Part shown: positions 40,829 to 56,788 of the stretch, one piece after another
Layout of the letters: each line of letters begins with the position of its first letter
Numbering within the stretch: the first letter of the stretch is position 1
Assembly (NCBI RefSeq): GCF_029761915.1
Contig: NZ_CP121695.1
Span: 8,337,501 to 8,401,500, forward strand
Length of the DNA stretch: 64,000 bases
Reading direction: 5' to 3'
From: Bradyrhizobium sp. CB1650
GTDB lineage: Bacteria > Pseudomonadota > Alphaproteobacteria > Rhizobiales > Xanthobacteraceae
Notes under the pieces: model-generated
Database searches by the model: none
What the model saw: only the letters and a program-made list of their open reading frames with translations
What the model was told of the DNA's origin: nothing
Program-made: the position numbers and the translations under genes

Positions 40829-41038
40829 TCAGCTGCGCTCACTTCCGGCTCTCCCAAACGAGCTAGAACGCCGCATTGACTGAGACAGGTATCTTGCGGC
40901 CTTGCGAAGTTTGCGGTCATGTTCGATCGATACAAAGGCAATTACCGCACGAACGGCAGCAATGTCTTGGAAGTAGATAACTTGGCTGACGGCACCGCTA
41001 AGAGACGCGACAGCCTCAATTGCGCCGCTGCATTGCAT
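40829..41038 (-). CDS. Small hypothetical protein upstream of RND operon
   Basis: 69 residues from the ATG at 41038, with GGAGAG upstream. It has two Cys near the N-terminus, a hydrophobic stretch (VSQVIYFQDIAAVRAVIAFVSI) and a basic C-terminus. It ends 4 bp before the efflux adaptor gene, so it is the first gene of that operon. I do not recognise it; a leader or small membrane-associated regulator is possible. Confidence 0.45.
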   Translation of the reverse strand: MQCSGAIEAVASLSGAVSQVIYFQDIAAVRAVIAFVSIEHDRKLRKAARYLSQSMRRSSSFGRAGSERS

Positions 41039-41724
41039 GTCGACTCTCCAATAGCATCGTGTTCCGCGTGTCGGTTCAGCGTTGAACGTTACGACACGAA
41101 GATGCTTTAGAGAGTGACCCTGCAGCACGGCTAAGGGAAATTACAATTCGACATCGACTTGATAAACGATGGTTATTGCTGCTTTCCGATTAGCATGATT
41201 ATGTAGTCGGAATGCACGACCACACCGCACACTGAGCCCGGCGCTTCGTTTCAGCAGAGACTCCTGAGCCGCGTTGAGGCGCAATGAACGGCGTCACGAC
41301 ACGCACACCGTTGCCGCGACTTCGGTCGCGAGCTCGAAGAGACGCTCATCAGTAACCTTCGCGAGCGACACGCACTACGAACAGTAAAGGTGAGCCATTC
41401 ATGATGCGCATGAATAACTCAAATACATTTTAGCCGGCTAGCGGCTCATAGGCGAATTGGGCAGCTTGTGTGCCAAGATCCGCCGTTCTATCAGGACATT
41501 ACTTGCCTTCGGCGGAAGCTTCGACTGACGCTACCTTCTCTTGCTATGACACTGGTCGAACATTCAAAAGCACAATGAAGACGGTGATTGATCGAAAGAG
41601 ACACTCCACCCAGCAATGAACGATTGATCGGAACACCGATGCGCGACGCAGACAATACTCGAAGGCCCGCCTATCTCGGAAGTCGTCTCGAACCCGGTTT
41701 CTTAACCGTGACTCTGTAGGGTGG
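41039..41724. other. Intergenic region with one 37-bp element
   Basis: 686 bp with no supported gene; contains the element at 41140-41176 and a conserved 15-16-base block (agagtgaccctgcag) at 41111-41125. The remaining ~500 bp show nothing I recognise. Confidence 0.5.
41140..41176 (-). promoter_or_regulatory. OxyR/LysR-like tetrad element, copy A
   Basis: In gene orientation: ATAA-N7-TTAT-N7-ATGT-N7-TAAT. Followed, 14 bases later, by CTGCAGGGTCACTCT. It lies about 100 bp upstream of the 69-residue gene and the RND efflux operon. Confidence 0.6.
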
Positions 41725-42762
41725 ATGATGGACGCAATTGTTCACGGGCAAAATCGCAGTAGGCGTCTCGAGAAGCGCGATGGCTATGTCGCTCTTGCGC
41801 CGGCGGCGGCGGCGATTTGTTATCCATTTCTGCTCAATGCTTTCCATGCTATCGTCGGCACGCAAGCCGCAAGCCTGCCACCCGTCGCAATCGCCTGCGC
41901 GACCAGTGTTTTGGTCGTTGCGTTCGTGGTGCCGTTCCTCGGGATCGCTCTAGCTTGTCGACCAACGTCCGATCCCGGTTCAAGACGCCTCGCCTATGCG
42001 AGCGTTGTGTCGCCGACGCTCTATGTTTTTCTCAGCGTTGTGCAAGCCCTAATCAAGAGCCCTATTCCCGATGAGGTCATCTGGTGCGCGATCTGGCTCG
42101 CAATCGCGAAATGGTCGCAGTCTGCACGAGGTCCGGCTGAATCAGCTGAGCCTGTGGTCGGAGGTTGGCGGGTTGTCCATGGAGTAACGGCCGTGGTCCT
42201 GAGCCTATATGTGGTGTTTCATCTAGCGAACCATCTGTTCGGCTTGATAGGTCCTGATGCGCACGTCGCAGTGATGAAGATCGGACGCATGGTTTATCGC
42301 TCCGCCGTAGGTGAACCGTCGTTGGTTGCAACCATGCTTTTCCAAACGGGGACCGGCCTCTTTCTGGCGTGGCGCTGGAGCGCCTCGGCCCATGACTTCC
42401 AGAGGACCTATCAGGTCGCTTCGGGAGCCTATCTCTCAGTCTTCATCCTCGGCCACATGAATTCGGTCTTCGTCTACGCACGAAGCTTTCTTGGCATACC
42501 CACGGATTGGAACTTCGCGATCGGAGCTCCGACTGGGCTCATTCATGACGCTTGGAACATCCGTCTGCTGCCTCACTACGCGCTCGGTGTCTTCTTTGTC
42601 CTGAGCCACCTCGCTTCAGGATTAAGGGTAGTGCTGATTGCACACGGTGTCGATCAACGTACTGCCGGTCGACTTTGGGGTATCTGCATCGCTATAAGTG
42701 CCGTCGTAGCGTCAGCGATCATCGCGGGAATGTCTGGAGTCAGAATCGGTGCACTCGCTTAG
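41725..42762 (+). CDS. SdhC-like multi-pass membrane protein
   Basis: 345 residues, about 8-9 hydrophobic helices. A repeated pattern resembles succinate dehydrogenase/fumarate reductase cytochrome b: VVHGVTAVVLSLYVVFHLANHLFGL and LPHYALGVFFVLSHLASGLR contain paired His that could bind haem. No SdhA/B genes are adjacent, so it is not a classical complex II subunit. It may be a membrane cytochrome-like redox sensor or carrier; the family is uncertain. Confidence 0.6.
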   Translation: MMDAIVHGQNRSRRLEKRDGYVALAPAAAAICYPFLLNAFHAIVGTQAASLPPVAIACATSVLVVAFVVPFLGIALACRPTSDPGSRRLAYASVVSPTLYVFLSVVQALIKSPIPDEVIWCAIWLAIAKWSQSARGPAESAEPVVGGWRVVHGVTAVVLSLYVVFHLANHLFGLIGPDAHVAVMKIGRMVYRSAVGEPSLVATMLFQTGTGLFLAWRWSASAHDFQRTYQVASGAYLSVFILGHMNSVFVYARSFLGIPTDWNFAIGAPTGLIHDAWNIRLLPHYALGVFFVLSHLASGLRVVLIAHGVDQRTAGRLWGICIAISAVVASAIIAGMSGVRIGALA

Positions 42763-43009
42763 TGAGTTTCGACCGTAAATTGCCTGGCATACACCTTTCT
42801 GAGCAAGGCCCGTGGATACTTACTTAATTTTGCTTTCTGTCGAAGCTAAGAGAACCATACGTCTCATAGTATGGCGCTGCCAAGCGATGACTACGATCCG
42901 GCGACCGCCAATGGGGACCTGGCGGGGAAGTCCCGACCCGCTTCCGTTTACGCGCCATCGCCCAGGTCAGCGGCACTTGCGGTGCTACATCTACCCTATA
43001 ACCAATCTA
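42763..43009. other. Short intergenic region
   Basis: No gene supported. The plus-strand frame starting near 42871 reads through the AraC remnant in the wrong direction and is not convincing. Confidence 0.3.
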
Positions 43010-43474
43010 AGGCGCGCTATCGCATTCTCCTACTGACGAGACTGCCCGCTTCGGAAGATGGTGAAGAAAGGCAGTCGGTGGCATTTTCATTACTTGCCGG
43101 AAGGCAAACGAGAACGCGGCAGCGCTGCTGAAGCCGACATCTGCCGCGACTTGCGAGATTGAACGCCCGACCGAGAGTTGATCGATCGCAAAAGCTATTC
43201 TTGCTCTTCGTGGCCGAGCTTTGAAGCTCAATCCAGTTTCCATTGGGGAAATGCGGCTCACCGTGCGAACCGCGGTTGCCGCGCGACGGGCAAGGTCACT
43301 AACGCCGAGACGCATCTGCGAATCGGCTAAAGCGATCCGCAACGCGTCTTCCGTCGGGCTTTTGGCATCGAAAGAAACACGGGAACCTCGGATGTCTCAG
43401 TAAGCTCATGAAGGATCAATCGAACGAGGAGCTCGGCTTTCGCGGACGGTATATCTGTCGTAAAGGCGGTGAGC
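43010..43474 (-). pseudogene. AraC-family regulator, frameshifted remnant
   Basis: The C-terminal HTH part is clear: LGVSDLARRAATAVRTVSRI and VGRSISQVAADVGFSSAAAFSFAFRQ. Upstream, LTAFTTDIPSAKAELLVRLILHELTE is in another frame; joining needs a one-base shift near 43375 (SFDAKSPTEDALRIALADSQ results). The N-terminal sensor is missing. It is a truncated AraC regulator. Confidence 0.7.
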
Positions 43475-43947
43475 ATCAATTATGGCGGTTAGCCCTTTGT
43501 GGGTATCGGCTTCGGCCTTTTCTAGACCCCGAACAAACACTGCGATGATGACGGCTGGATCCATAGAACGTAGCGCAGCTGCAAGAGGGATGAATGCTGC
43601 GGCTCGCTACGTCGGATGGTCGCTGGGTTCCGCCTTGGTTTCGCTGATCTTCGGACTAGCTAGGCGGAGATCATAGCACGATCTTTTGTTTGGTTGCAGG
43701 AATGACCTTCGCCCTGATGGGAGCTGCTAGCAGCAACGTTCGCCAACTTAGATAGCTTCCAAAACCGGAATGCCAGCACTTCGTCGAAAGTGTTGCCGTT
43801 ATCTGACTAGGTGAGCCGCTGCAGACGTCGTGGCGGAACCCTAACCAACCGCGCAAAAACATTCCTGAATCATGTCCCCGGCCAAGCGCCATCCAGACAC
43901 GTGCGCCATCCATCGATCTTCCAGCTAATCCCGCTGCTTTGCTGCTT
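43475..43947. other. Non-coding stretch
   Basis: Open frames exist on both strands (for example plus 43482-43676 with a membrane-like end LGSALVSLIFGLARRRS), but none has a ribosome site or known domain. Confidence 0.3.
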
Positions 43948-44427
43948 TCAATTTTTTGCCAAAGATTTGAGGTGGCGGACAAAACCGAGCACATCGTCGG
44001 GCATCAGACGGCCGATCGCGCGGGTCGAATAGACGGCCGTCACCACTCGGCTTTCGGGGTTCAAGACGAAGCCGGTTGCCTGGAGACAGACGGGATCGTC
44101 ATTAACGAAGGCGCCGGTCATCGCGGAAACCGCTCGCGCGTCAGCACCGTAAGCGACGGGGAAACCGATTTTGTGCTTTTCGACGAGCATTTCCGATTTT
44201 TCCCGGTCGTCTACCGATACCGAGACGACCTTGATGCCTTCACCGACGAATTTGTCTGCCGCTCGCGCGAAAGCGGCGAGCTGAGCGTTGCAGTACGGGC
44301 ACCAGGAGCCACGATGGAATAAAACCACGCCAAACCAACCTGCAAGATCGGCAGGCAGGCTGATTTTTCCGCCCCCGACGCGAGCGAAGGTAAGAGATGG
44401 AAAGATGTCGCCGTTTTGCAGCATCAT
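43948..44427 (-). CDS. Peroxiredoxin (AhpC/TSA-type)
   Basis: 159 residues from the ATG at 44427 (GTG 44439 is the next choice). The active-site block LFHRGSWCPYCNAQLAAFA carries the peroxidatic/resolving Cys pair as CxxC, as in 'redoxin domain' proteins of the Bcp/PrxQ-like side branch. The N-terminal part fits the thioredoxin fold. It reduces hydroperoxides. A 37-bp element (44672-44708) lies about 250 bp upstream, consistent with an oxidative-stress link. Confidence 0.8.
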   Translation of the reverse strand: MMLQNGDIFPSLTFARVGGGKISLPADLAGWFGVVLFHRGSWCPYCNAQLAAFARAADKFVGEGIKVVSVSVDDREKSEMLVEKHKIGFPVAYGADARAVSAMTGAFVNDDPVCLQATGFVLNPESRVVTAVYSTRAIGRLMPDDVLGFVRHLKSLAKN

Positions 44428-45163
44428 AATCGGCCTCACTGTTTGAACCGCAAGGCGCTCGAACCGCCCGCGGCTTCCTCAAGAACGGCCCCGCATCCGG
44501 TGACCAGGTCTCTTCGCTGATCCCATCTCCGGAAGGCGCGCCGATTCGATGAGGTCGTTGCTTCGCATAATCGAGCCGCCTAGCTTCTCAAGCCGACATT
44601 GTATGTCGGTCACAGGATCGAATTATACGACGTTAGCTCGGAGATTGACCAAAGGACGTCGGCAACGCAAAATTGATTGTCGCCATAAAATCAATAAACG
44701 ATAGTTATAGTCACTCGCGCAGTGCGCCCCCGAGCCAGATGCCAGTGGCCGCGTCTGCAGAAACTCGCCGCCTCGGCAATCGATCAACGTCCCAGCCTGC
44801 GGGAAACGGCCGCCTATCCACTCCTGAACTGGCATTGCATGGCGCCAATGACGTCATGTGTGGCGTTGACGTGGCACACCTAATTCGCCAGGTGCGTGTG
44901 GCACGCGGGCTCCTCTCGCGTCGGACCTCATCAGCACAATGGACGCGTTGGAATGGAAACCATAACAGTCAGACATTTTCCCGTGAGGTGACGTCAGCTT
45001 AGCATCGCTCAAGCGAGCCTAACGTTCCACCACGAGTTTCAGATAACATTTGAAATAGCCAGTCTCGTGACGACCTCTTCCCGCCCGTTATAACGGATAC
45101 GATCGTGATTTTCCTATCGAGGATCATCATCTTTCCGACTTGTTGCTCAAAAGGACAAAGCCC
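44428..45163. other. Intergenic region with one 37-bp element
   Basis: 736 bp with no supported gene. Contains copy B of the tetrad element (44672-44708). A plus-strand frame at 44673-45002 overlaps it but has no ribosome site and no domain. Confidence 0.4.
44672..44708 (-). promoter_or_regulatory. OxyR/LysR-like tetrad element, copy B
   Basis: In gene orientation: ATAA-N7-TTAT-N7-ATGG-N7-CAAT. Oriented towards the peroxiredoxin gene. It lacks the second TTGCARGG block seen in copies A, D, E and G, and its last tetrad deviates most. Confidence 0.5.
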
Positions 45164-45580
45164 ATGAAGATCCAAACCATTACCGTCCTCAGCGCCGCTC
45201 TCGCCTTCTCGATGACCGGCCCTATTTGCGCCCTTGATAGCGGGGCGGAAACCGTCACCAAGAACTTCGAGGCGGCTATTCCCAATATCCCTGGCAAGTC
45301 GCTGATTGCTGTGGAAGTCGATTACGCACCGGGCGCGGCCTCTCCGCCCCACACCCACGCGAAATCTGCTTTTATCTATGCATATGTGATCTCAGGCGCG
45401 ATCGAGTCGAAGGTAAATGATAGCGAGACGCGCATCTATCGGGCCGGCGAGAGCTGGTCTGAATCTCCGGGTTCGCTCCACTCGATCAGCCGCAACGCGA
45501 GCAAGACCGAGCCGGCGAAGCTGCTCGCCCTGTTCGTCCTTGACACCAATGACAGCCCGCTCACCACTCCTACCAACTGA
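45164..45580 (+). CDS. Secreted cupin-domain protein
   Basis: 138 residues from ATG 45164, with an AAAGGA ribosome site. The signal peptide IQTITVLSAALAFSMTGPICA is cleaved near ALDSG. The cupin motif SPPHTHAKSAFIYAYVISGAIESKV...YRAGESWSESPGSLHSI contains the metal-binding His/Glu set (HTH...). Small exported single-domain cupins of this kind are common near redox genes. Metal or substrate is unknown. Confidence 0.8.
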   Translation: MKIQTITVLSAALAFSMTGPICALDSGAETVTKNFEAAIPNIPGKSLIAVEVDYAPGAASPPHTHAKSAFIYAYVISGAIESKVNDSETRIYRAGESWSESPGSLHSISRNASKTEPAKLLALFVLDTNDSPLTTPTN

Positions 45581-46084
45581 CGCTTCAGACGCAGTGAGCA
45601 ACGAACGTCCTCAAGGAGCTAACGATAGGCGAGTACAATGCGTTCACTCGGTTCACCGGGCCTGCACCGCATCGAACGGATCTTAGCCACGCTCGCTAGC
45701 ACATTCTACGACAAGCCAACTGCCCGCGCCGTCGAGGCTGTTTGCGGCAGGATCGGCAACCCCAACGCAGATCTTCACGCGCTACGATTGCGCAAACTAC
45801 TTGCGCGACGTCGAACAAACGAGCCTCAATGTCGCTAGACTTGATTGGGTAATCGGCAATTCGGCGACTCAAATTGCACCAGCTAACAACGGCGGTCTGA
45901 GGGCGACCTCGGCTTCCTGCAGGAGGCACGGACTTTGACATCATCTACCGTATTTGTGTCAGTGCGCTGTCGCGACGAACTCCTGTCAGTTGGAGCGGCA
46001 GCGCATGAGATTCAGTGAATTTTGCAAGCAAACATCGCCAATTTCAGAGGGAATACGGCTCTCCGCGGTACTCGGACTGATCAT
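45581..46084. other. Non-coding stretch, possible IS630 tail
   Basis: No gene supported. Around 45757-45840 (plus) one frame reads IFTRYDCANYLRDVEQ, which resembles the end of IS630-type transposases; too short to be certain. Nothing else recognised. Confidence 0.3.
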
Positions 46085-46618
46085 TCATGCGCCGGGAATC
46101 ATCGACTGAAACACTTCATCACGCAGATAAAAGTAGTGGAAGAGGGCCGCGGCTGTATGCACGCCGGCAACCCAGAGGATGGCGTTACCTAGCGTGGCAT
46201 GTATTTCCATCATCAGATGACCCAGACCATGCGCTTTCGTGATCTGCGGAGCGATGTCGAATCCGGGAAGAGTGACGGGAATCCCCTCAAGCCAGGTACC
46301 AAGCACGGCCGTTGTTGGAATCGCAATGAGGAACACATAAAGCACGAAGTGGACGAGCTGCGCGATCAGGGTCATCCATCGCGGCATCGGCTGCTTCGCT
46401 GGCGCGCTGTCGATCAGCCTCCATACCAACCGCAGTACGACGACACTGAAAACAAGAACCCCGAGCGTCTCGTGAATCCTCCGGAGCCCGTCCGCGGAGG
46501 CGGAATAGAGCGAGTAGCCATCGCCACTGCTCAGCACATAGGCGACAAGAACCAGCATGACCGTCAGCCAATGGAACAATCGGGCGCCGGCGCCGTAGCG
46601 AGAAGAAGTGCTGCGCAA
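46085..46618 (-). CDS. Cytochrome b561
   Basis: 177 residues with four membrane helices. Haem-ligand His are placed as in the bacterial b561 family: LFHWLTVMLVLVAYVL (first helix), RIHETLGVLVF, then MMEIHATLGNAILWVAGVHTAAALFHYFYLRDEVFQSM. It shuttles electrons between quinone and a periplasmic partner. It is 5 bp after the RidA-type pseudogene, same strand, so both are read from the promoter region around 47.1 kb (copy D element). Confidence 0.88.
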   Translation of the reverse strand: MRSTSSRYGAGARLFHWLTVMLVLVAYVLSSGDGYSLYSASADGLRRIHETLGVLVFSVVVLRLVWRLIDSAPAKQPMPRWMTLIAQLVHFVLYVFLIAIPTTAVLGTWLEGIPVTLPGFDIAPQITKAHGLGHLMMEIHATLGNAILWVAGVHTAAALFHYFYLRDEVFQSMIPGA

Positions 46619-46623
46619 AGCGA

Positions 46624-47062
46624 TTACCTAACTTGGAAACTCACCACCGCGGCTTCGCCTCTGGCTCCGGGCAGCGTCCCCCTGAAGGTGATTTCGACGA
46701 GCTGTTCAGGAAAGGCCAGTCTCGCCACACCGATCAGGTTGCTGGCGCACCGAGGCGTGTCGCCGGCCTCCCTGCGCACGTTGCCCGCCGCGGCGAATGC
46801 GGCGACGACGAGGACATAAAGCCTCTCCTGGACGGCGGTGTTCAGCGTTGCTCCGAAGCGCGCTGAACTCTTGACGGCATTGGCGTCGGTCGCTCGCATC
46901 TGTCGTTCCATCATCGAAACCTCCGCGAGCCGACCGAATTCATCGAGAAGCAGGCGCTATCAGGTTGCCATTTTCTTGCCGGCTGAGTTGGCCAGAGACA
47001 TGGATCGCATCACCGACCTCAAACTGTTGTCTTTCATATCGACCCTCGTTGCTTTTCACGCT
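46624..47062 (-). pseudogene. RidA-family protein, frameshifted (copy 1)
   Basis: The first frame begins at GTG ~47062 and reads NEGRYERQQFEVGDAIHVSGQLSRQENGNLIAPA then stops at 46940. A one-base shift gives LLDEFGRLAEVSMMERQMRATDANAVKSSARFGATL and the usual RidA C-terminus CASNLIGVARLAFPEQLVEITF. RidA enzymes deaminate reactive enamine/imine intermediates. As read the protein is split near 46945. The end lies 5 bp before cytochrome b561. The copy D element and a conserved TTGCAGGG block precede it. Confidence 0.75.
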
Positions 47063-47138
47063 GGTCGCGTCTCGTTGGCGGCATTTAGTATTTGAATGAC
47101 GATGGTTGAAGAATGACCCTGCAACTGCGCCGAGTGAA

Positions 47139-47175
47139 ATCACCTTTCGCCATAGAGTCGATAGACGATCGTTAT
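47139..47175 (-). promoter_or_regulatory. OxyR/LysR-like tetrad element, copy D
   Basis: In gene orientation: ATAA-N7-CTAT-N7-ATGG-N7-TGAT. Followed 14 bases later by TTGCAGGGTCATTCT. Upstream of the RidA copy 1 and cytochrome b561 genes. Confidence 0.65.
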
Positions 47176-47389
47176 TGCCGCCTCGGCGGTGTGACGACGC
47201 CATAGCGTGGAATGCCTGCAGGCGCATATCCAAGCGACTGGCGCTCGCGCCTTTGGACAAATCGAGTTTTGCTCGTTCCATAGCGACACCCGCTTACCCG
47301 TGTCGCAACCTAGGCGATCAGCGTAGGGCAACCTGGATCTCTGGAGATGCGACGGGTGGCATTCCTCACTACGACGCTGTTGGTCGGCG

Positions 47390-47426
47390 ATAACGATCGT
47401 ATATCGACTCTATGTCGAAAGGTGAT
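47390..47426 (+). promoter_or_regulatory. OxyR/LysR-like tetrad element, copy E
   Basis: ATAA-N7-ATAT-N7-ATGT-N7-TGAT, followed 15 bases later by TTGCAAGCTCATTCT. Upstream of RidA copy 2 and the cbb3-like oxidase genes. It is divergent from copy D, 214 bp away. Confidence 0.65.
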
Positions 47427-47531
47427 TTCCCTTGGCGGGCCTTGCAAGCTCATTCTCCAACGCGTCGTCATACCGCAGCTTTCAATGACGTCACCAACAC
47501 GCGATCAGATCGACAAGCCAGGAGGCTCGAT

Positions 47532-47796
47532 ATGCAAAGCAACGGCGTAAACCCGGCTTCCGTAAGTGGTAAAGCCGCCGATTTCGGCGAACCATGGGAA
47601 GATGGCTACCGGTACGTAACGGCGGACAGGATCGGCGAAACGATCCATGTTTCCGACCAGCTCAGCTACAAAAATAAGGACAAAGTGATCGCGCCGGATT
47701 CTCCCGATAAAGCCGGCCCGGTTGCAATGCCGCTGACGTCACGCTTTTGGTGCGCCTCAGGGCAACGCTGAACAACGTCGTCGAGGAGACGGATGA
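47532..47796 (+). pseudogene. RidA-family protein, truncated (copy 2)
   Basis: ATG 47532 with AGGAGG 6 bp upstream. Reads GKAADFGEPWEDGYRYVTADRIGETIHVSDQLSYKN...VIAPDSPDKAG, the RidA N-terminal half. The frame then stops at 47771; the other frame, from ~47738, shows LLVRLRATLNNVVEETDDV, a piece of the middle. A deletion removed the region between and the C-terminus runs into the oxidase gene. It has its own good ribosome site and upstream element, so it was a real gene. Confidence 0.75.
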
Positions 47797-49193
47797 TGTC
47801 CGATAGCGCTGCAGCCATTCCACTTCGCGCGCTCCCTCCGGATGACCGTGTTTTGGCACGGGTGCTCGCGGCGTACGTGGCCTCGGCAACAATCTGGCTT
47901 GTATTCGCCACGGCCGTGGGGCTCCTCGTCAGCTTCAAATTCGCTTACCCGGATTTCGCGACCACGCCAGCGCTGTCGTTCGGTCGGCTGCGCGCGATAC
48001 ACACCAGCGGAACGTTTTATGCCTGGGCGAGCCAGGCGCTGATTGGGCTTGCGCTGTTTGTCGCCGCGCGCAGTTCTGGCGCAAGGCTCTACAGCGAGCG
48101 CCTCGCATGGATCAGTCTTGCGCTCCTCAATGTCGCCGCCGTGCTGGGCACGGTCACACTCGATCTCGGCTTCACCTACGGCCAGGAGTATCGCGAATGG
48201 CTGTGGTGGATTCGCGTAATCCTTGGACTCGGCTTGATCACCGCGGTCTGGAATATGATCGCCACTGTCGAGCGCCGGGATGGCGAGCATATCTATGTTT
48301 CTAACTGGTATACTATCGGGGGCACGCTGTGGACGATTGTTATGGTCGTGGTGTCGATGTTGCCCTGGTATCAGTACGGACTGGGTCAGGTCGCGGTACA
48401 GGCCTTCTTCATGCATAACGCCGTCGGACTATGGTTCACGCCTCTATCGCTCGGTGTGTCCTACTATGCGCTGCCGAAGCTCTTGAACCGGCCGATCTAT
48501 TCATATTCTCTCGGCGTCTTTGCATTCTGGACCAATCTCATCTTCTATCCGATCATCGGCGCTCATCATTTTGAATTCAGTCCACTACCATGGTGGCTGC
48601 AGACTACGGCCATCGTCTTTAGTGTGGCCATGCTGGTTCCAGTGCTGAGCGGCACCGCAAACTTCCTTCTCACCTTCCGGGGGACTCACGAATGGATATA
48701 TCGCTCGCCCGCGGTTTTCATCCTCGTCGGCGTCTACGGCTATATACTGGGTTCGACACAAGGCACATTCGAGGCGTTTCGCTCGCTGCAGCAGCTTTGG
48801 CATCTGACCAATTACACGGTAGGGCACTCGCACCTGACGATGTATGGCTTCGTCACTTTCGCGATCTGGGGCGGCATCTATGCGCTGTTGCCGCGCGCCA
48901 CTGGCAAGTACCCCTACAACCTGACCATGGGCATACATTTCTGGCTGTCCGCCGTCGGCGTTGTCATATACGTTGCGGCGCTATCGGCCGCCGGCACCGT
49001 TCAGGGGCTCGATTGGTTTCGAGGACTCACCTTCATCCAGTCGGTCGAAGATGCCGCGCCATACTGGCTGTGGCGCTCCGTCGGCGGCTCGCTGATGTTC
49101 GCCGGCCATCTTGTCTTCGCTTTCAACGTCTGGACAATGACCTACGGTAGGTCCTGCACCAAGCTTGCGGCAGCCAAGACGGTGCCGGCATGA
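47793..49193 (+). CDS. cbb3-like haem-copper oxidase subunit I
   Basis: 466 residues, about 12 membrane helices. Metal ligands are in place: RAIHTSGTFYAW (low-spin haem His), FFMHNAVGLW (Cu-B His), IIGAHHFEF (Cu-B His pair), YTVGHSHLTMYGF (two haem His). RPIYSYSLGV corresponds to the C-family YSY helix that holds the cross-linked Tyr, so it belongs to the C (cbb3) family. It is shorter and more divergent than FixN. It reduces O2 (or possibly NO) at the inner membrane. It overlaps the next gene by 4 bases. Confidence 0.85.
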   Translation: MMSDSAAAIPLRALPPDDRVLARVLAAYVASATIWLVFATAVGLLVSFKFAYPDFATTPALSFGRLRAIHTSGTFYAWASQALIGLALFVAARSSGARLYSERLAWISLALLNVAAVLGTVTLDLGFTYGQEYREWLWWIRVILGLGLITAVWNMIATVERRDGEHIYVSNWYTIGGTLWTIVMVVVSMLPWYQYGLGQVAVQAFFMHNAVGLWFTPLSLGVSYYALPKLLNRPIYSYSLGVFAFWTNLIFYPIIGAHHFEFSPLPWWLQTTAIVFSVAMLVPVLSGTANFLLTFRGTHEWIYRSPAVFILVGVYGYILGSTQGTFEAFRSLQQLWHLTNYTVGHSHLTMYGFVTFAIWGGIYALLPRATGKYPYNLTMGIHFWLSAVGVVIYVAALSAAGTVQGLDWFRGLTFIQSVEDAAPYWLWRSVGGSLMFAGHLVFAFNVWTMTYGRSCTKLAAAKTVPA

Positions 49194-50518
49194 ACAGGAC
49201 ATTGGCCATTTCTGGCGGTTCAACGCTGATCTACACTGGATTAGCGGTTCTTATGGGCGTGCTGCCGGGGATCTGGCTGTCGAAGGTGCCACCGACGCCG
49301 GGCCTTAAGCCACTAACCTCGATTGAGGCGCGGGGTCGAGATGTCTATGTCTCCGAAGGCTGCTTCTATTGCCATACCCAGCAAGTACGCCCGCTCTCTG
49401 GAGATAAGCCGTTTGGCCGCCCGTCTGCGCCGGGTGATTATGCCTACCAGACTACGGAATTACTAGGTTCGGAGCGCACTGGTCCAGACTTGAGCAATAT
49501 CGGCGCGCGGCAGTCGAGTAGCATATGGCAGTACATCCATCTCTTTCAACCGCGAGCAGTTGTGCCTCAATCGATCATGCCCGCCTTCCCCTGGCTGTTC
49601 AAGATTGTGGACAAACTACCCCCGGGAGAGAAAGCGGTGCCATTGCCGCCCCAGTTCGCGCCAGGCGGGACCGTCATCCCCAACGAGGACGGCAAGGCGC
49701 TCGTAGCCTATTTGTTGTCCCTGAAGCAGCCCCCGCTCGTTCCGACGCAGTCCCGCGCCGCGACTGAGAGTCCTTCGAGCGGGTCCCTGGGGTTTGACGC
49801 CACCAAGGGTGCCGCATTGTTCGCCGACAACTGCGCGTCCTGCCATGGTGCGGAAGGCAAGGGTGTGCCGGGAACGTTTCCGCCGCTCGCCGGAGACCCG
49901 GTGGTTAACGACGCCGATCCCACGGCACATATTGGCGCTGTGCTGCACGGACTTGGCGGGCGGGTAATCAATGGCCAGAGCTATGAAGCGCAAATGCCGG
50001 CGTTTGCCGATCAATTGTCTGATCAGCAGATTGCTGACATCATCAATTACGAGCGATCCTCGTGGGGCAATCGTGGTGCCTTAATCAGTGCGGCTGATGT
50101 CGTCGCGGCTCGCGCCAACGAATCACTGCAGAAGCAGGCAACGACGCCGAAACAGGTCTCGCCGGTAGCGCCCCCGGCACCGACGTTCGATGCTGCGGAA
50201 GGATCGAAGCTCTTCGCCGACAACTGCGGCGTCTGCCACGGCGCCGAGGGCAAAGGCGTTCCTGGCACATTTCCGCCGCTTGCAGGCGATCCGGTCGTTA
50301 ATGCCACTGACCCTGCCGAACATATCACCACCATGCTGCGCGGCCTTAGCGGTAAGGCAATCGACGGCCAGAAGTACGAAGTAGAGATGCCGCCGTTCGC
50401 TGACCGACTGTCTGATCAGCAGATCGCCGATATCATCAATCACGAGCGCACGTCATGGGGTAACCACGGGCCGTTGGTGACGCCTGCCGAGATCACGAAG
50501 CTCCGTGCTGAAAAATAG
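49190..50518 (+). CDS. Tri-haem cytochrome c subunit: fused CcoO-like and two CcoP-like domains
   Basis: 442 residues. An N-terminal membrane anchor (TLIYTGLAVLMGVLPGIWL) is followed by a CcoO/FixO-like domain with CFYCHTQQVRPL and QSIMPAFPW (axial Met). Two similar class I cytochrome c domains follow, with CASCH and CGVCH, each with ERSSWGN or ERTSWGN near its end, so one arose by duplication of the other. In normal cbb3 oxidases CcoO (one haem) and CcoP (two haems) are separate proteins. Here they are one polypeptide. It overlaps the subunit I gene (ATGA). Confidence 0.9.
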   Translation: MNRTLAISGGSTLIYTGLAVLMGVLPGIWLSKVPPTPGLKPLTSIEARGRDVYVSEGCFYCHTQQVRPLSGDKPFGRPSAPGDYAYQTTELLGSERTGPDLSNIGARQSSSIWQYIHLFQPRAVVPQSIMPAFPWLFKIVDKLPPGEKAVPLPPQFAPGGTVIPNEDGKALVAYLLSLKQPPLVPTQSRAATESPSSGSLGFDATKGAALFADNCASCHGAEGKGVPGTFPPLAGDPVVNDADPTAHIGAVLHGLGGRVINGQSYEAQMPAFADQLSDQQIADIINYERSSWGNRGALISAADVVAARANESLQKQATTPKQVSPVAPPAPTFDAAEGSKLFADNCGVCHGAEGKGVPGTFPPLAGDPVVNATDPAEHITTMLRGLSGKAIDGQKYEVEMPPFADRLSDQQIADIINHERTSWGNHGPLVTPAEITKLRAEK

Positions 50519-50527
50519 GAGGCGACG

Positions 50528-50770
50528 ATGACCGATACGATTACCACCTGGATTCTCTCGGCGCTTGGCTACCTCTGCACTGCGTCTTCGATCGCTGGTG
50601 GCGCTGGCGGTCCTAGTCTTGGCGGACCACTACTCGGCAACGCGCTGGTGGCGGGCGGGGCCGGGCTCGTGACACTTAGCTGCATCGTGGCGGCGGTGTG
50701 GATGCTGGTCGCCCCCGGCGAACGGGATCCCCATCATCCAAAATATCGCGTCCTGCATGCCGACCGTTAG
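50528..50770 (+). CDS. Small oxidase-associated membrane protein
   Basis: 80 residues with two hydrophobic helices separated by Gly-rich turns (GGAGGPSLGGPLLGNALVAGG) and a polar end PGERDPHHPKYRVLHADR. It lies 9 bp after the tri-haem subunit and just before a 148-residue membrane protein. The small size and position fit a CcoQ-like or assembly subunit; the family is not sure. Confidence 0.6.
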   Translation: MTDTITTWILSALGYLCTASSIAGGAGGPSLGGPLLGNALVAGGAGLVTLSCIVAAVWMLVAPGERDPHHPKYRVLHADR

Positions 50771-50783
50771 AGGATTGCAACAC

Positions 50784-51230
50784 GTGTCCGATCCGCGCAT
50801 CCGCATCTATCTCGACGAAGCGACCGATCCCGTCACCGATCAGCGGCCACCGGCGCAGATAGCGCTCGACACCAAGAGCCTTGCCGACGGCGAACACGGC
50901 CTGCGCATCGAAGCCCAGGACGCCACCGGCCAAGTCGGCGTCCGACGCCTTCGGTTCCAGGTCCGCAATGGGCCTGGGATCACACTCAGCGGGCTCGGTG
51001 ATGGGGCCGTCGTTCACGGTACGCTGCGCTTCATGGTCAACGCGTTTGGAGCCGAAGAACCATTCGAGCCGCACCGGGCAGAATCGCCCTCGCCAATCCC
51101 TGTTTGGGTTTGGGTGCTAAGCCTGCTGATCGTTGCTTGGACCGCCTGGTATGTCGCGACGCTTTGGAACGTTCCCGCGAACTATGCCAAAACCCCGACC
51201 TATTCCGCGTCAATGAATCCATTCAAATAG
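50784..51230 (+). CDS. Oxidase-cluster membrane protein with beta-sandwich domain
   Basis: 148 residues from GTG 50784, with AGAGG 10 bp upstream; ATG 50757 would overlap the preceding gene. Residues 1-95 look like an immunoglobulin-like/beta-sandwich domain (LDTKSLADGEHGLRIEAQD, FQVRNGPGITLSGL). A single C-terminal membrane helix follows (PIPVWVWVLSLLIVAWTAWYV). I have seen this layout next to alternative oxidases in rhizobia, with no known role. It probably ends the oxidase operon. Confidence 0.6.
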   Translation: MSDPRIRIYLDEATDPVTDQRPPAQIALDTKSLADGEHGLRIEAQDATGQVGVRRLRFQVRNGPGITLSGLGDGAVVHGTLRFMVNAFGAEEPFEPHRAESPSPIPVWVWVLSLLIVAWTAWYVATLWNVPANYAKTPTYSASMNPFK

Positions 51231-51295
51231 CGCGCCGCTAGAAAAGCGAGCTTAACAATGAGGGGCTTCGCCCCAGCATCAGGGATCAAGCTCAC

Positions 51296-51511
51296 ATGCC
51301 ACGCACCATAGTCAACAAGCACGGCTTCCCCGGCGTCAGGAAGCGGTCGGACTGTGCTAGGCGGCGAAAACCCTACTACGCCCGCATTAGCAATGGTTGC
51401 GAAAACTTCATCTATAGCAAGAACTTCGCGACGGCCGAGGAGGCCGCTGCGGAATATCAGCGAATGAGGGCTGAAAAGTCATCGCCCCTATCGTCGAAGG
51501 ATTGCCGGTGA
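51296..51511 (+). CDS. Small AP2-like DNA-binding protein
   Basis: 71 residues from ATG 51296. GFPGVRKRS...RKPYYARISNG...FIYSKNFATAEEAAAEYQRM resembles the AP2 integrase-type fold (three beta strands and one helix). Such stand-alone small AP2-like proteins recur in Bradyrhizobium. It may bind DNA, but its target is unknown. Confidence 0.6.
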   Translation: MPRTIVNKHGFPGVRKRSDCARRRKPYYARISNGCENFIYSKNFATAEEAAAEYQRMRAEKSSPLSSKDCR

Positions 51512-52066
51512 GCATCCTGCCCGAAGTGACCACCCCGGCGCCACCGATCCATCCGGATTTTCACGCCTCCGAGCGAATATGCGCGTTCACGACACAGTGC
51601 GTGGAGGCGACTAGAAAGCGACGCGATCCAATCGAGCGGCTTCGGCTCTTGATCATGGAGGCTCCCCCCTTGGCTTGGCATAATGGCCACAGGATTTTTC
51701 GATCACCGTCCTACCTTTATCGCTTCGTTATGAACACAAGTGACGGCAGCCCACATGAAGGCTTACAGGTCGATCCCTTCGACTTGAAAGGATGCAGGGA
51801 ATCAATCGATGCACTCGCATTTAAAGGCTCACATTCCATTCTCGTCGAACCGGCATCCTCGTTCTCGACTTGGTCCAGCAACTTTTCGAAGTTGCGATCC
51901 AGGCTGCTATCCGTTTCGGGCGGTGTGAATTGATGAAATACGGACCGAGGAAAGATGCTCACGCACCAGAGTTCTGTCGTGCGGCTAAAACGAGCAGGTG
52001 CCGACCTTATTGCTACGTGCGCAGCGCTAAAAGTCGGCGCGCTACACAACAATCAGAGCCTTGATC
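51512..52066. other. Non-coding stretch
   Basis: Open frames occur on both strands (for example minus 51717-52052), but they have no domains and no ribosome sites. No regulatory repeat seen. Confidence 0.35.
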
Positions 52067-53002
52067 ATGGAAATTCGCCTCGGCACCAGGCGAAGTGATT
52101 TGGCCCGCTGGCAAGCCAGTCACGTCGCCGCTCTTATTCATGGCGTCGAGCCGGCCGCTGAGGTAAGACTCGTTTTCACAAGTTCGGTTGGCGATAGAGA
52201 TCGACGGTCGTCCTTTCAACAGTTTGGCGGCATCGGAGCATTCACGAAGGAGAGCGAAGACGCGCTTACGCACAAAGAAGTTGACTTGGTCGTTCACTCT
52301 CTCAAGGATCTTCCGACCAGATTGCAGCCCGGTTTGGTATTGGCGGCCGTTCCCAAAAGAGCGGATCCTCGTGACGCAATTTGTGGCGTTACACTAGATC
52401 AGCTACGACCAGGGCTGCGCGTCGGCACTGGATCAATTCGCCGCAAAGCGCAACTTCTCGCTCTTTGCAGTGGTCTGGATGTTCGACCCATCCGTGGAAA
52501 CGTTTTTCCAAGGCTTTGTAAGGCAAAGAACCGAGAGGGAATAGACGCTACTCTTTTGGCAGCGGCGGGGTTGTCACGGCTAGGATTGCTACATGAGGCC
52601 TCACAGATTCTAGACCCGAATGTTTTCCCGTATGCAGTCGGCCAAGGCGCCCTCGCGGTCGAAGCTCGCGAAGAAGATACGGCACTCATAGCACTGCTTC
52701 AAAAGATTGAAGATCGGAAATCGCGTACCGAAGTAGACGCAGAGCGCGCATTGATGAGAAGTCTCGATGCGGGTTGCAGCTTACCGCTCGGGGTTTCTGT
52801 CAGATGGGTCGCCGGGACATTAACGCTTCGAGGACAGGTGACTCATCCAGATGGCCACACGAAGATTGCTGATGAATGCGTCGGTACGGCCGATCAAGCA
52901 GACGCAATAGGCACACGTCTAGGAGACAAACTTCTTCAGCGAGGTGCGGAGGAGATATTGAAGGCGGTGCCTCGCATCATGGAAGAGCAAAGGCCAATCT
53001 GA
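52067..53002 (+). CDS. hemC: Hydroxymethylbilane synthase (porphobilinogen deaminase)
   Basis: 311 residues from ATG 52067. Family motifs: RLGTRRSDLARWQ, DLVVHSLKDLPT (catalytic Asp), GTGSIRRKAQL, RGNVFPRL, ATLLAAAGLSRLG, GQGALAVE and SLDAGCSLPLG with the dipyrromethane Cys. It joins four porphobilinogen units in haem synthesis. It is moderately divergent from a typical rhizobial HemC (for example RRSDLARWQ instead of RGSPLALWQ) and stands apart from other hem genes, so it is probably a second copy. Confidence 0.9.
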   Translation: MEIRLGTRRSDLARWQASHVAALIHGVEPAAEVRLVFTSSVGDRDRRSSFQQFGGIGAFTKESEDALTHKEVDLVVHSLKDLPTRLQPGLVLAAVPKRADPRDAICGVTLDQLRPGLRVGTGSIRRKAQLLALCSGLDVRPIRGNVFPRLCKAKNREGIDATLLAAAGLSRLGLLHEASQILDPNVFPYAVGQGALAVEAREEDTALIALLQKIEDRKSRTEVDAERALMRSLDAGCSLPLGVSVRWVAGTLTLRGQVTHPDGHTKIADECVGTADQADAIGTRLGDKLLQRGAEEILKAVPRIMEEQRPI

Positions 53003-53275
53003 ATTCGATACCTGGCGTGACGAAGGACTTCGGTCTTTGGTCACCGCATGCGATTTCGGCGCGACCAGTTGCAAAGCCTGAAACCTGGCCCACCACCGAA
53101 ACGCAAGGCTGGCGGCCGCGTTAGCTGCCCAGCGCGCGCAAGCACTCCTCCGCAATTCGTGTCGGCGCGTTGCGGCGCTGACGCTGAAGATAGTCTTCGT
53201 TAGGGCACCAGCGGCCTGCTTTTCAAGTGGGACATATGCGCGTTGGTCCAAAGGATCGCTTGGAACACGGCGACC
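53003..53275. other. Short intergenic region
   Basis: No gene supported. It is downstream of hemC and downstream of the DUF6894 gene on the other strand, so two convergent units end here. Confidence 0.4.
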
Positions 53276-53509
53276 TCAATTCGGCTCCCCGAGCACGAAA
53301 GTGAAGGGCACAACGAAGAGCTCATCGCCCTGATCATCGCTGACATGCAGAACCCAGTCACGCCAATCCTCGAGGCTGCGCTCTTTGGTGAGGGACTGCA
53401 CGATGCGGTTCGCATGATCCCGCGCTTCAGCAAGATCATCCACGACGGCGCCGCGGCGATCGACGAAAACCTTCTTGGTGTTCGCGCAGTGGAAATATAC
53501 GTGCGTCAT
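53276..53509 (-). CDS. DUF6894 family protein
   Basis: 77 residues from the ATG at 53509, with AAGGAG upstream. HVYFHCANTKKVFVDRRGAVVDDLAEARDHANRIV, then SLEDWRDWVLHVSDDQGDELFVVPF matches the small DUF6894 family, very common in Bradyrhizobium and of unknown function. Full length for the family. Confidence 0.75.
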   Translation of the reverse strand: MTHVYFHCANTKKVFVDRRGAVVDDLAEARDHANRIVQSLTKERSLEDWRDWVLHVSDDQGDELFVVPFTFVLGEPN

Positions 53510-53694
53510 TTCGACTCCTTCAAATGCGACGGTTCGCCACGATAACTCTGCGTTGCTGGTGTCCTCGACGGCGGGATACCAGGAGATCTCGACCAAGTGC
53601 TCCTAAGTTTCACGCCTGCGATGTGGAACAGGCGGACCGCCTCGTCGCAGGTGGAATCATCTCCTTTTCACGGTCAGGCATAAGCGGCGGCAAG

Positions 53695-55563
53695 CTATGA
53701 TGATTTCATGCCGGAGCTCTGCGGCGCATCTCCGATAAGCTCCTGACGCGAAGCTCCCCAGAGCAGGCCAGTCCCGACGACGGCAGAAAGACTCGAGGCG
53801 GCGAACACAGCGATTTTTGCGGCCGAGAAGTCGGTGGCGCTTGGAAATGCCTGTCCGGCGATGAAGAGCGACATCGTGAAGCCAATGCCAGCGAGGGCTC
53901 CTGCCCCGCCCAGCTGCCGCCACGTGTATTCGGCCGGCTTGACGGCTATGCCTGTGCGCACTGCCGCTGCGGCCGCGAGGAAGACGCCGAGCGGTTTTCC
54001 TATAGCGAGACTAGCGACGATCGCAGCCGTGAGACGGCCATGGCCAGCGAGGACGCCTGGGTTGATCGTCACTCCGGCATTCGCCAATGCGAAGATTGGC
54101 AGGACAGCGTAGCTCGATCGCGCGCCGGCGTGTCGTAGCAGTCGATCGGCCGGCGATTCAATTCTATCGTAAATTGCATCGAGCGCCTGCAGGGCTGGAG
54201 TGGAGGGGCCGCGCCTGAGAACTTCGCCCTCATGCCGAGCTTCGGACGCGATGATGGTGCTCGCCTGCATCATCAGGGCGGCCAGATTGGCGGGCGGTCG
54301 CGTCGGAATGAACAAGGCAAGTAACACGCCGGCCAATGTAGCGTGGAGACCGCCCGCGTATACGAGGGCCCACAGCGCAGCGCCCATCAGGATGTAGGGC
54401 GAGAGATGGTACACCCCAGATCGGCTCAGCAGCACCAGCGCAACTACAACCATCGCCGCCGCAACAAGGTAGGTCAGATGTATTTCGCCGGAGTAAAACA
54501 CGGCGACGACGACGATCGCACCGATGTCGTCAACGATGGCCGCCGCGGTGAGGAAGATACGCAGCTCGACGGGGACGCGGGAGCCCATCACTGCAATCAA
54601 GGCAATCGCGAACGCCGTGTCGGTCGCCATCGGAACGCCCCACCCGTACGACCACGGCCCCGCGGGGAGAACCAGCGAATACAGACACGCCGGCACAACC
54701 ATGCCGCCGAGCGCGGCCGCGATCGGAAGCGCCGCGGAGCGACGGCTTGCGAGGTGTCCGACTGTCATCTCGCGCTTCACTTCCAACCCCACAACGAGGA
54801 AGAACAGCGTCAACAGCCCGTCGTTGACCCAATGGAGGATGGACATCTGAAAGGCTGCGCTGCCCAAGCTCACGCCGAACTCCCAGCGCCAGAGCGCCTC
54901 GAACGCCGGCCCGATCGGCGAGTTCGTCAAGACAATCGCCGCCACAGTCGCGACGACGAGCAAAACGCCGGCAGACGGCCCCCAGCTCGCGAAGTCCAGG
55001 GCAGCCGTACGGACGCGGTGGCCAAGCGTGCCAAGCATTGCATCAACGAGAGAACTTTCGTCCCAGGGTCCGTCGTAGCGCCGGCGGTTGATGTAAAATG
55101 TCGGCGTGAATCTCACGCCGCTCGCGCGTGCACTCGCGATGTCCGACTCCACCCTCGCCTTCGCGCGACGAACCGCGTCGCTATCGCGAAGCGTGGGGTT
55201 GGCATGCACACCTAGGTCAGCGGCCACCGCCGAAAGGTCGTCCTCTGTGAGCTGCATCGACCTCGTCATCAGCTTGATGTGCGCGGACCAGAACGTCTCT
55301 GGCGTCTGAGCAAGCTCAGCGAGCTCCGCAGCACGGAAGGAAAGACTGTTGTCCGTGAGCGGCCTGTGGCGGAAGGCATAGCAAACGCGGTCGCCAAGTT
55401 GATCGCGCGCCTGCGCGATGCGCTCGTTGGCAGCCCTGCAGTGCGGACAGGCGTAGCTGCCGTACTCAACCAGCGAGATCTCGGCATCGGCGGGGCCGAG
55501 CACGTGCTCTGTCTTGTGATCGACCGCACGATCGAGGCGGCCGGGCGGGATCATAAGCTTCAT
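53695..55563 (-). CDS. nhaA: NhaA Na+/H+ antiporter fused to N-terminal DsbA-like domain
   Basis: 622 residues from the ATG at 55563. Residues 1-190 are a DsbA/thioredoxin-like domain: SYACPHCRA (CxxC), cis-Pro region GVRFTPTFYINRR. Residues ~200-610 are NhaA: VGLEVKREMTVGHL, GGMVVPACLYSLVL, MATDTAFAIAL and AAIVDDIGAIVVVAVFY with the paired Asp of the ion site (VDD), then GIGFTMSLFIAG. It exports Na+ for H+. The redox domain could sense or support disulfides at the membrane; such fusions are known in some bacteria. It overlaps the upstream gene (ATGA). Confidence 0.88.
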   Translation of the reverse strand: MKLMIPPGRLDRAVDHKTEHVLGPADAEISLVEYGSYACPHCRAANERIAQARDQLGDRVCYAFRHRPLTDNSLSFRAAELAELAQTPETFWSAHIKLMTRSMQLTEDDLSAVAADLGVHANPTLRDSDAVRRAKARVESDIASARASGVRFTPTFYINRRRYDGPWDESSLVDAMLGTLGHRVRTAALDFASWGPSAGVLLVVATVAAIVLTNSPIGPAFEALWRWEFGVSLGSAAFQMSILHWVNDGLLTLFFLVVGLEVKREMTVGHLASRRSAALPIAAALGGMVVPACLYSLVLPAGPWSYGWGVPMATDTAFAIALIAVMGSRVPVELRIFLTAAAIVDDIGAIVVVAVFYSGEIHLTYLVAAAMVVVALVLLSRSGVYHLSPYILMGAALWALVYAGGLHATLAGVLLALFIPTRPPANLAALMMQASTIIASEARHEGEVLRRGPSTPALQALDAIYDRIESPADRLLRHAGARSSYAVLPIFALANAGVTINPGVLAGHGRLTAAIVASLAIGKPLGVFLAAAAAVRTGIAVKPAEYTWRQLGGAGALAGIGFTMSLFIAGQAFPSATDFSAAKIAVFAASSLSAVVGTGLLWGASRQELIGDAPQSSGMKSS

Positions 55564-55883
55564 CGCTGAACGGAGCCCAAGTGTTCGCGCGCCGTTCTCA
55601 CCGGGGGCCGCTCGCCGGCAGCGACCGCGGCTCGCGCATCGAACGGATTGGTATGGCACAAGACGCCCGACACCTCGCCGTTGGACCCGACGACTGGGAT
55701 CTCCATACATCTCGACGCGATGCGGCCGGTATCGTCATCGCGCACGCAACTCACACTTGTGCTGAACGCACGCTCCAATCCGTTCGCAACACCCGCGCCC
55801 TCCACGAGCACGACGACATTCTCCGACGGCGGGCGTTCGACAGAGCGGGGCAAGGAAATGCGGGCCGTCTCTTCGATGTGCAT
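55560..55883 (-). CDS. Short GAF-like domain protein
   Basis: 107 residues from the ATG at 55883 (55907 is a possible earlier start). The C-terminal half, MEIPVVGSNGEVSGVLCHTNPFDARAA, resembles the last strands of GAF sensor domains (pattern VPV...DG...GTLCHFD). The N-terminal part NVVVLVEGAGVANGL is not typical. It is translationally coupled to nhaA (stop overlaps start). Preceded by the copy F element, so it may be a redox or stress sensor for this operon. Confidence 0.5.
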   Translation of the reverse strand: MHIEETARISLPRSVERPPSENVVVLVEGAGVANGLERAFSTSVSCVRDDDTGRIASRCMEIPVVGSNGEVSGVLCHTNPFDARAAVAAGERPPVRTAREHLGSVQR

Positions 55884-55982
55884 GTCGGACCTCTTATGAT
55901 CGTCCAACGGAAGGCCGACTTCGGCCGCAGCCGCGGCGGGCGATGACGGATTAAGATTAGGTCAGGGACGGTGGAAAAGAAA

Positions 55983-56019
55983 ATCACCTCTCGCCATGAA
56001 GTCGATAGCCAGCCGTTAT
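55983..56019 (-). promoter_or_regulatory. OxyR/LysR-like tetrad element, copy F
   Basis: In gene orientation: ATAA-N7-CTAT-N7-ATGG-N7-TGAT. About 100 bp upstream of the GAF-like gene and nhaA. It lacks the second block TTGCARGG. Confidence 0.65.
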
Positions 56020-56751
56020 CGGAACGGCTCAAAAGTAGTGCGTCACGTGCTGCGGGCCGGAGCGGAACTTTCGGCTGGCGCGAAGAGGTGTTCACGCGCT
56101 CATACTTTCGGCGGAAGGATTATTATGCGCGGCTCAGCCGATCTCTCGGCAAAAACACTGGTGCCGCGAGCGCGGTCGTAAAGCCCAAGCGCCCGTACAC
56201 CCCGCCGCAATCGGAGCTGCGAGTAAACCGTGACCCAGAGCATTGCAGGAAGACCGGCCCCTCACCTCGCCGTCCCCCACCGCATCGATGCGGAGAGAAG
56301 AACGCCTGTCGCTCTGAAGGCACACGGCCCGACACGGCTTTGCGCTTTCTACCCTGGTGCGGTGCCCGCCACTCGCACGGGTTTCCAACACTCGAGGCGT
56401 CGGTTTAAGCAAGCTCCGCGCACCGACGACGTCGAGGGCGCGGCCGTCCCGACCGGGTTCGAGGGTACCCACCGTCAATCCGCGCAAAACCAGCGTCGCT
56501 ATGGCGCCGGGGTCCCTCCGGCCACAAGAGCCCGTCGTCCACCGGCGTCCTTTACCACGACGGAAACTTTGGTTCTTCGAATGCATATCACGCGAAGTCG
56601 GTGCCATCACGCTCTAGCCCATGAGTTCGCCGCGCCATGGGTGGTACATGATTGTCTGCTCGCCACGTCCGCAGAGGCTCCTAACTCGTCGTCGCCGTTG
56701 AACTACCCGATGATGGGCCTCCTCACTGTAGTCTCGCCCAGCAAAGCGGCA

Positions 56752-56788
56752 ATAATGGTCGTCTATCGACTCCATGGCGAGAGGTGAT
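56752..56788 (+). promoter_or_regulatory. OxyR/LysR-like tetrad element, copy G
   Basis: ATAA-N7-CTAT-N7-ATGG-N7-TGAT, followed 14 bases later by TTGCAAGGTCATTCT. It lies 61 bp upstream of the secreted protein gene at 56850. Confidence 0.7.

Follow-up and report, generated by a model that had tools for sequence, protein, structure and literature searches.

Why does a single 37-bp element recur ahead of unrelated stress and respiration genes in Bradyrhizobium sp. CB1650? The element stands six times in the window analyzed here, a stretch of 64,000 nucleotides spanning positions 8,337,501 to 8,401,500 of contig NZ_CP121695.1. We consider it reasonably probable that an OxyR-like LysR-type regulator uses the element as its operator, and that operator and regulator travel together within a horizontally spread block of stress and respiration genes. 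The best candidate for the regulator is a protein encoded in the window itself (23891..24907, + strand); this protein or a close paralogue is predicted, with similar confidence, to bind the sites directly. Judged from its sequence features, the regulon appears to be real, local, horizontally spread and OxyR-like in design.

All six elements lie where an earlier note on this DNA had placed them. Site 1 (41140..41176, − strand) points towards an RND efflux operon, site 2 (44672..44708, −) towards a peroxiredoxin gene, site 3 (47139..47175, −) towards a broken RidA copy and cytochrome b561, site 4 (47390..47426, +) towards a truncated RidA copy and a cbb3-like oxidase, site 5 (55983..56019, −) towards a leader protein and a thioredoxin-NhaA fusion, and site 6 (56752..56788, +) towards a small secreted protein and a putative pseudo-caspase. 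The pattern given for them in that note, ATAA-N7-YTAT-N7-ATGK-N7-TRAT, fits sites 1, 3, 5 and 6 exactly, while sites 2 and 4 each carry one mismatch (a fourth tetrad CAAT and a second tetrad ATAT, respectively); the 7-base spacing is kept in all six. With one mismatch tolerated, a scan of the window returned these six sites and nothing more, and the same scan of 100 dinucleotide shuffles of the window returned no match.

To what known operator does the element correspond? Conservation was assessed in 125 distinct sites scoring above 35 bits, collected from the fetched loci with exact repeats of the same 100 bases dropped. Near-invariant are ATAA at positions 0-3, TAT at 12-14, A17, T19, AT at 22-23, A30, T33 and ATTT at 35-38. 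These bases form two T-N11-A boxes 22 bp apart, with T1-A13 and T23-A35 near-invariant, which bears out the OxyR/LysR tetrad geometry claimed earlier. The best dyad centre of the matrix is at 18.0, and the half-box dyads are at 7 and 29. The element therefore has the T-N11-A box, imperfect dyad and paired boxes of a LysR-type operator, as well as the four ATAG/CTAT-type tetrads at N7 spacing of an OxyR operator. Such T-N11-A tetrad geometry is a trait of LysR-type regulators and not of AraC-type or response regulators. Against the 16 bases of the OxyR consensus (ATAG-N7-CTAT-N7-ATAG-N7-CTAT), 101 of the 125 sites have 12 matches; 13 are found in three sites, 11 in 17, 10 in three and 9 in one. 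For sites 1 to 6 of the window the counts are, in order, 10, 12, 12, 10, 12 and 12. By comparison, a paper on P. aeruginosa (PMC5720770) gives the OxyR consensus and lists 12 matches for the sites at ahpC and phnW. Like OxyR operators, the element stands upstream of redox-defence genes; unlike them, it conserves the bases between the tetrads, it is confined to an island in this genome, and its candidate regulator falls below the cut-off of the OxyR model.

The conservation extends beyond the tetrads on the downstream side, where TTTCCCT and CAnTCT (+60 to +65) are conserved. The second block that the earlier note described exists, but it is weaker than the operator, with a mean identity of 0.43 over +43 to +66 among the 11 sites of this genome; it is best conserved at CAnTCT, and its TTGCARGG-type form occurs in 63 of the 125 sites. 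A sigma-54 promoter was considered for the TTGCARGG block and rejected, the GG-N10-GC spacing not being kept as judged by eye. A start preceded by a ribosome site was found within 400 bp at 98 of the 125 sites, at a median distance of 106 bp (quartiles 96.5 and 113.5). A TATAAT hexamer lies 44 bp beyond site 2 on its downstream side.

The earlier note had suggested a genome-wide pattern search. In the genome of the window (G000, 9.43 Mb), at up to three mismatches, the degenerate pattern matches nine times, always within the 78 kb from 8378640 to 8456435, and the reversed pattern, used as a control, not once. One refuting condition of that note, equal frequency inside genes across the genome, was thereby put to the test and did not refute the claim. 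A matrix scan over 180 kb around the window returned 11 strong sites, from 50.7 bits (site 2, the lowest) to 72.8 bits; below a weaker site at 23.1 bits, background begins at 13.6 bits. Five of the strong sites fall beyond the right edge of the window, at G000 positions 8426792, 8429063, 8438483, 8445730 and 8456399. The suggestion of a local regulon thus holds in that the sites cluster in this genome, and has to be widened in that the cluster runs past the window and recurs in several genera, both on islands and on plasmids.

Are these sites true operators, or the remains of a duplicated segment? Mean pairwise identity among the 11 sites is 0.63 at −5 to −1 and 0.78 both inside the site and at +37 to +43; in all five blocks beyond −5 to +66 it is 0.25-0.29, which is the chance level. 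With flanks no more alike than chance would have it, duplication of a segment is rejected as a sufficient account of the copies; the duplication test named in the earlier note, to which the spread of the targets over many sequence clusters also speaks, left the operator claim standing. Duplication does contribute in part, since some paralogous targets (RidA, the secreted protein) were copied together with their site. That the copies are nothing but a recently multiplied promoter segment or repeat element, with no shared regulator, we regard as very improbable: the repeated presence of RidA and of the small secreted protein alongside sites would fit it, as would a 39-bp core that can be identical between genomes, but the drop in identity outside −5 to +66, the patterning of conservation at A/T positions with dyad symmetry, the nearly constant distance to the start where one was found, and the absence of all 11 sites from genes called by a simple script speak against it.

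The motif is shared by a minority of the genus. At up to three mismatches, it is found in 43 of 265 Bradyrhizobium genomes, at least twice in 38 of these, and the reversed pattern is found in none of the 265. The sites are mostly clustered, and in draft genomes they are scattered over several contigs. A search of the genome contigs of 84,980 species with the exact degenerate pattern returned 63 stretches, from Bradyrhizobium, Rhizobium calliandrae, Rhizobium sp. P32RR-XVIII, Afipia sp. 1NLS2 and one alphaproteobacterial metagenome-assembled genome. Among 72,556 plasmid records there are two with matches: pRCCGE525c of R. jaguaris, typed as non-mobilizable, has six motif places, and pEmeITTGR7a of S. 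mexicanum, typed as conjugative, has five, four of which were read as sites. In a sample of 397 genomes spread evenly over the order (141 genera), the motif occurs in three (this genome, G248 and G321). A tRNA that might anchor an island was sought and not found within the 180 kb fetched.

The protein encoded at 23891..24907 has the N-terminal HTH_1 (E 2.9e-19) and C-terminal LysR_substrate (E 1.1e-24) domains of a LysR-type regulator, and its distribution follows that of the motif. In each of the five Bradyrhizobium islands that were compared first it has a relative, 72-78% identical to the copy in S. mexicanum. At E ≤ 1e-110, the LysR protein is found in 40 of the 265 genus genomes, 39 of which are among the 43 motif carriers (Fisher p 6e-41, phylogeny ignored). 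The earlier note had named this gene as worth testing, and the presence of its group in 39 of 43 genus carriers makes it the best candidate. In 35 of these 39 genomes a copy reaches at least 80% identity. Outside the genus, all five of the Rhizobium, Sinorhizobium and Afipia genomes or plasmids tested encode the LysR, at 67-83% identity, and in the order sample motif and LysR occur in exactly the same three genomes. The island of this genome also contains two further LysR genes, at 8424943-8426007 (59% identical to the candidate) and 8454889-8455776.

The candidate itself resembles OxyR. A profile of 28 LysR sequences searched against the PDB has as its best match OxyR 4x6g (1.8e-25), which we take to be the P. 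aeruginosa chain. The 120 best-scoring among 2833 homologues all contain residue Cys198, and in an alignment of 17 island copies and paralogues every one has it. Its counterpart in the chromosomal OxyR, encoded beside what is, by its sequence, presumably katG, is Cys200, and it also lines up with a cysteine of the OxyR chain 6g1b, presumably from C. glutamicum. On our assumption as to which of the aligned OxyR cysteines is peroxidatic, Cys198 lies at or next to that position. OxyR differs from the island protein in its resolving cysteine, in its score with the OxyR model and in its distribution, the island LysR being restricted to a minority of genus genomes. A cysteine one residue beyond the resolving position (208) occurs in 18 of the 120 best homologues.

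A number of observations weigh against the proposal that the island LysR reads these sites. On the side of the operator, the set of 125 sites is conditional on a matrix built from the 11 sites of this genome, counts orthologues and one or two class II variants among its members, and falls short of the full number of matches in the genus; and at four of the 11 sites of this genome the next called gene on the same strand is more than 400 bp away (at two of the four, the simple gene caller had missed short reading frames). On the side of distribution, G109, G115, G188 and G221 have only a paralogue at 59-61% identity, and G188 is nonetheless rich in sites; because of these four carriers, our claim concerns the LysR group and not one orthologue. 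G054 and G194, with one site each, lack any LysR relative at E ≤ 1e-60, G121 and G138 show no more than LysR fragments at contig edges (58-59%), and in G147 the LysR is accompanied by nothing stronger than a weak variant site. One of the sites of G213 is separated from the others listed by about 0.62 Mb, so that not every site is in one block. Moreover, the co-occurrence does not single out the LysR, since other island genes co-occur with the motif too through linkage, and the islands contain further LysR paralogues. Autoregulation through the motif was considered and rejected: within 600 bp upstream of the LysR genes in nine regions no site was found, the scores never rising above −5.8 bits. 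On the side of the protein, the NCBIfam OxyR model NF008361, with its cut-off of 329 bits, gives the island LysR 78.4 bits; this cut-off is strict, since the OxyR beside katG also falls short of it at 251 bits. Cys198 is one residue off in alignments to 4x6g, the alignment shows no resolving cysteine nine residues on (the window protein has Ser207 there), and the AlphaFold model of the LysR is unusable, with a mean predicted local distance difference test score (pLDDT) of 36.3.

Could the housekeeping OxyR of the chromosome read the sites instead, the acquired island genes having adopted its operators? Twelve of 16 consensus bases, as at the P. aeruginosa sites listed in PMC5720770, would suit this explanation, and so would two OxyR-model matches elsewhere in this genome and the two carriers with a site and no island LysR. 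The spacer beside oxyR even contains a site of the same geometry, ATCA-CTAT-ATCA-CAAC, with 10 of 16 consensus bases; yet it scores −15 bits with the island matrix, as against at least 50 for the island sites of this genome. In addition, bases outside the tetrads are conserved, and at up to three mismatches no island-type site is found elsewhere in this genome. Finally, an orthologue (at least 80% identity) of the OxyR beside katG is present in 22 of 25 sampled genus genomes, whereas the motif is present in three of the same 25, and for this reason the chromosomal OxyR is an unlikely regulator. The link to OxyR drawn in the earlier note stands for the geometry of the site and is unlikely to extend to the chromosomal protein. 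The score of the oxyR spacer and the distributions of OxyR and motif argue for an island-borne regulator with a specificity of its own.

It is fairly unlikely, too, that this regulator is some other island protein: the AraC-type protein encoded at 25153..26163 (− strand), a response regulator, or a more distant LysR paralogue. All three kinds lie within the same islands, the LysR paralogues are close in the DNA-binding domain, and an AraC relative is present in 42 of 47 carriers when distant paralogues are counted. However, AraC orthologues (at least 58%) are present in only 13 of the 47, which excludes the AraC protein as a universal regulator; the 60-kb pieces of G091 and G191 show none of the response regulators; and the T-N11-A tetrads are LysR-like. 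The best NCBIfam match of the AraC protein is RclR, at 75.9 bits for a cut-off of 400, so that it does not qualify as RclR.

We propose, then, that a tetramer of the island LysR, or of the close paralogue of the type encoded at G000 8424943, would occupy the two T-N11-A boxes, with the CAnTCT block (+60 to +65) inside the core promoter and the gene start about 106 bp past the operator. Oxidation of Cys198 would alter the grip of the tetramer on the operator, and genes for efflux, peroxiredoxin, GMC oxidoreductase, Dps, RidA, thioredoxin-NhaA and oxidase would be switched on jointly. We infer that the LysR binds the sites and activates, and that its signal is an oxidant; a response to oxidants or electrophiles is the most economical reading. 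More speculatively, it is possible, if rather doubtful, that the block is a self-contained transmissible regulon in which an OxyR-like regulator without a resolving cysteine acts through up to about 11 near-identical operators. Such a regulon would move between genera of the Hyphomicrobiales partly on plasmids and bring with it peroxide and methionine-repair enzymes, efflux, and a second set for heme, cytochrome c maturation and oxidase, and the signal of its regulator would be an oxidant distinct from plain H2O2, for example hypochlorite or an electrophile, perceived without the disulfide of OxyR.

Other known systems offer partial parallels. BenM/CatM-type LysR proteins, lower-ranked among the PDB matches (1.6e-17 and 4.3e-16), have ATA-N-TAT-type T-N11-A sites and are pathway-specific regulators; in contrast, the regulon considered here takes in many operons. 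The E. coli hypochlorite regulators HypT and RclR belong to the LysR and AraC families, both of which are represented in the islands, and the annotations of the S. mexicanum island include MsrA, MsrB, RidA and DUF417. The title of PMC4284807 names activation of RidA by N-chlorination. In the review PMC7464077, RidA and Msr proteins are linked to hypochlorite stress, and HypT is described as activated by methionine oxidation, which sets it apart from the cysteine-based scheme above. RclR, for its part, differs in that the island AraC protein falls far below the cut-off of its model.

Full-text searches of open-licence PMC papers turned up none with a title or abstract opening that describes the motif, the regulator or the island. 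A stress regulon of many operons is as a rule encoded on the chromosome and governed by a housekeeping regulator. Here the operators and their likely regulator appear to move together, and from this it follows that soil and nodule bacteria could gain or lose a whole oxidative-stress programme at once. The 37-bp element also makes it possible to pick out target genes in new genomes with precision, and it suggests a testable function for a group of OxyR-like LysR proteins for which we found no description in the open-licence PMC literature. Likewise, it ties to one response such accessory genes as the thioredoxin-NhaA fusions, the pseudo-caspase, the GMC oxidoreductase and the small secreted proteins.

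Which genes stand behind the sites? Membership of the regulon was given only to genes directly behind a site. At 120 of the 125 sites a reading frame of at least 60 amino acids starts within 450 bp downstream, and these frames form 32 sequence clusters, 11 of which have two or more members and cover 99 sites; the remaining 21 are singletons, some of them probably due to chance, and include Dps and a TlpA-like protein. Named by the best S. mexicanum match or by eye, the larger clusters are the HATPase leader/NhaA (32 sites, the largest), GMC oxidoreductase (18), secreted protein (9), RidA (9), RND adaptor (8), cupin-like (6), MFS (6) and peroxiredoxin (3) clusters, two unnamed clusters of three sites each, and cbb3 oxidase (2). 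Near the S. mexicanum sites the annotated genes encode GMC oxidoreductase, Dps, MsrA, MsrB, OsmC, EgtB, EgtD, P460, RND efflux and NhaA, together with peroxiredoxin-like proteins adjoining LysR genes and with hem, ccm and cbb3 products.

In the window, site 1 points to an operon encoding an RND periplasmic adaptor (39631..40941, −) and an RND efflux permease (36461..39634, −), and the target of site 2 is a peroxiredoxin of the AhpC/TSA family (43948..44439, −). Downstream of site 3 lies cytochrome b561 (46085..46618, −); downstream of site 4 are a COX1/CcoN-like oxidase subunit (47793..49193, +) and a CcoO-like protein with two further cytochrome c domains (49190..50518, +). The theme of stress and respiration proposed in the earlier note is upheld. 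Its RidA targets are upheld only for their sites, the divergent pair 3 and 4: both RidA copies are fragments (46624-47771) although their operators have been retained, and two of the reading frames of these copies gave no Pfam match. An intact RidA with a site of its own lies outside the window, at G000 8429205. Downstream of site 5 lies the NhaA fusion (53695..55710, −), whose thioredoxin/DsbA domain is N-terminal. The leader ahead of it had been called GAF-like, which we could not reproduce: it has no Pfam match here, and its relative in S. mexicanum is a HATPase_c protein.

The target of site 6 is a small protein (56850..57329, +) with a signal-like N-terminus by eye; a Pfam search with the reading frame 56784-57329 gave no match. 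Behind it is a protein of the Peptidase_C14 (caspase) family (57372..58238, +) with YFGGYG and VIEASRRNP at the presumed catalytic motifs, so that Tyr and Ser stand where we take the catalytic His and Cys to be; this protein is likely inactive, a putative pseudo-enzyme behind the shared operator.

We also note two variants of the operator. The second operator variant, TCATAACGCGCGGCTATCGACTTCATGGCGTGACGTCATTTC and its relatives, scores 24-38 bits and occurs at loci L160 (G321 2749836), L162 (G283 1248949), L129 (G091 7959770), L139 (G223 6038960 and 6039769) and L123 (G011 2844698); in G321 and G283 it lies about 100 bp ahead of a molybdopterin oxidoreductase and ferredoxin reductase pair, and it may be read by a LysR paralogue. 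The third variant, CGATATCTCACGCCTATCGAATGCATGTCCAAAGGGAATTTC and its relatives, scores 19-25 bits in the window and in seven islands. In the window it is the weaker 23.1-bit site (class III, 26894-26930, +), which points towards a c-type cytochrome gene with a cytochrome c domain, and it is kept in the islands of G039, G011, G091, G191, G147, G201 and G072. In several islands the third variant lies near the LysR-peroxiredoxin pair, and in some it precedes cytochrome c or P460 genes.

A search for RNA elements gave no Rfam match across the window at gathering thresholds. Finally, the window contains an accessory heme/cytochrome c set (52061-62641) with porphobilinogen deaminase (52061-53002), uroporphyrinogen decarboxylase (58992-60086) and cytochrome P460 (61958-62641). 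Just to its right (G000 8401501-8410363) are matches to hemA, ccmA, B, C, E, F, H and DsbE, and a similar heme/cytochrome c set is found on the S. mexicanum plasmid.

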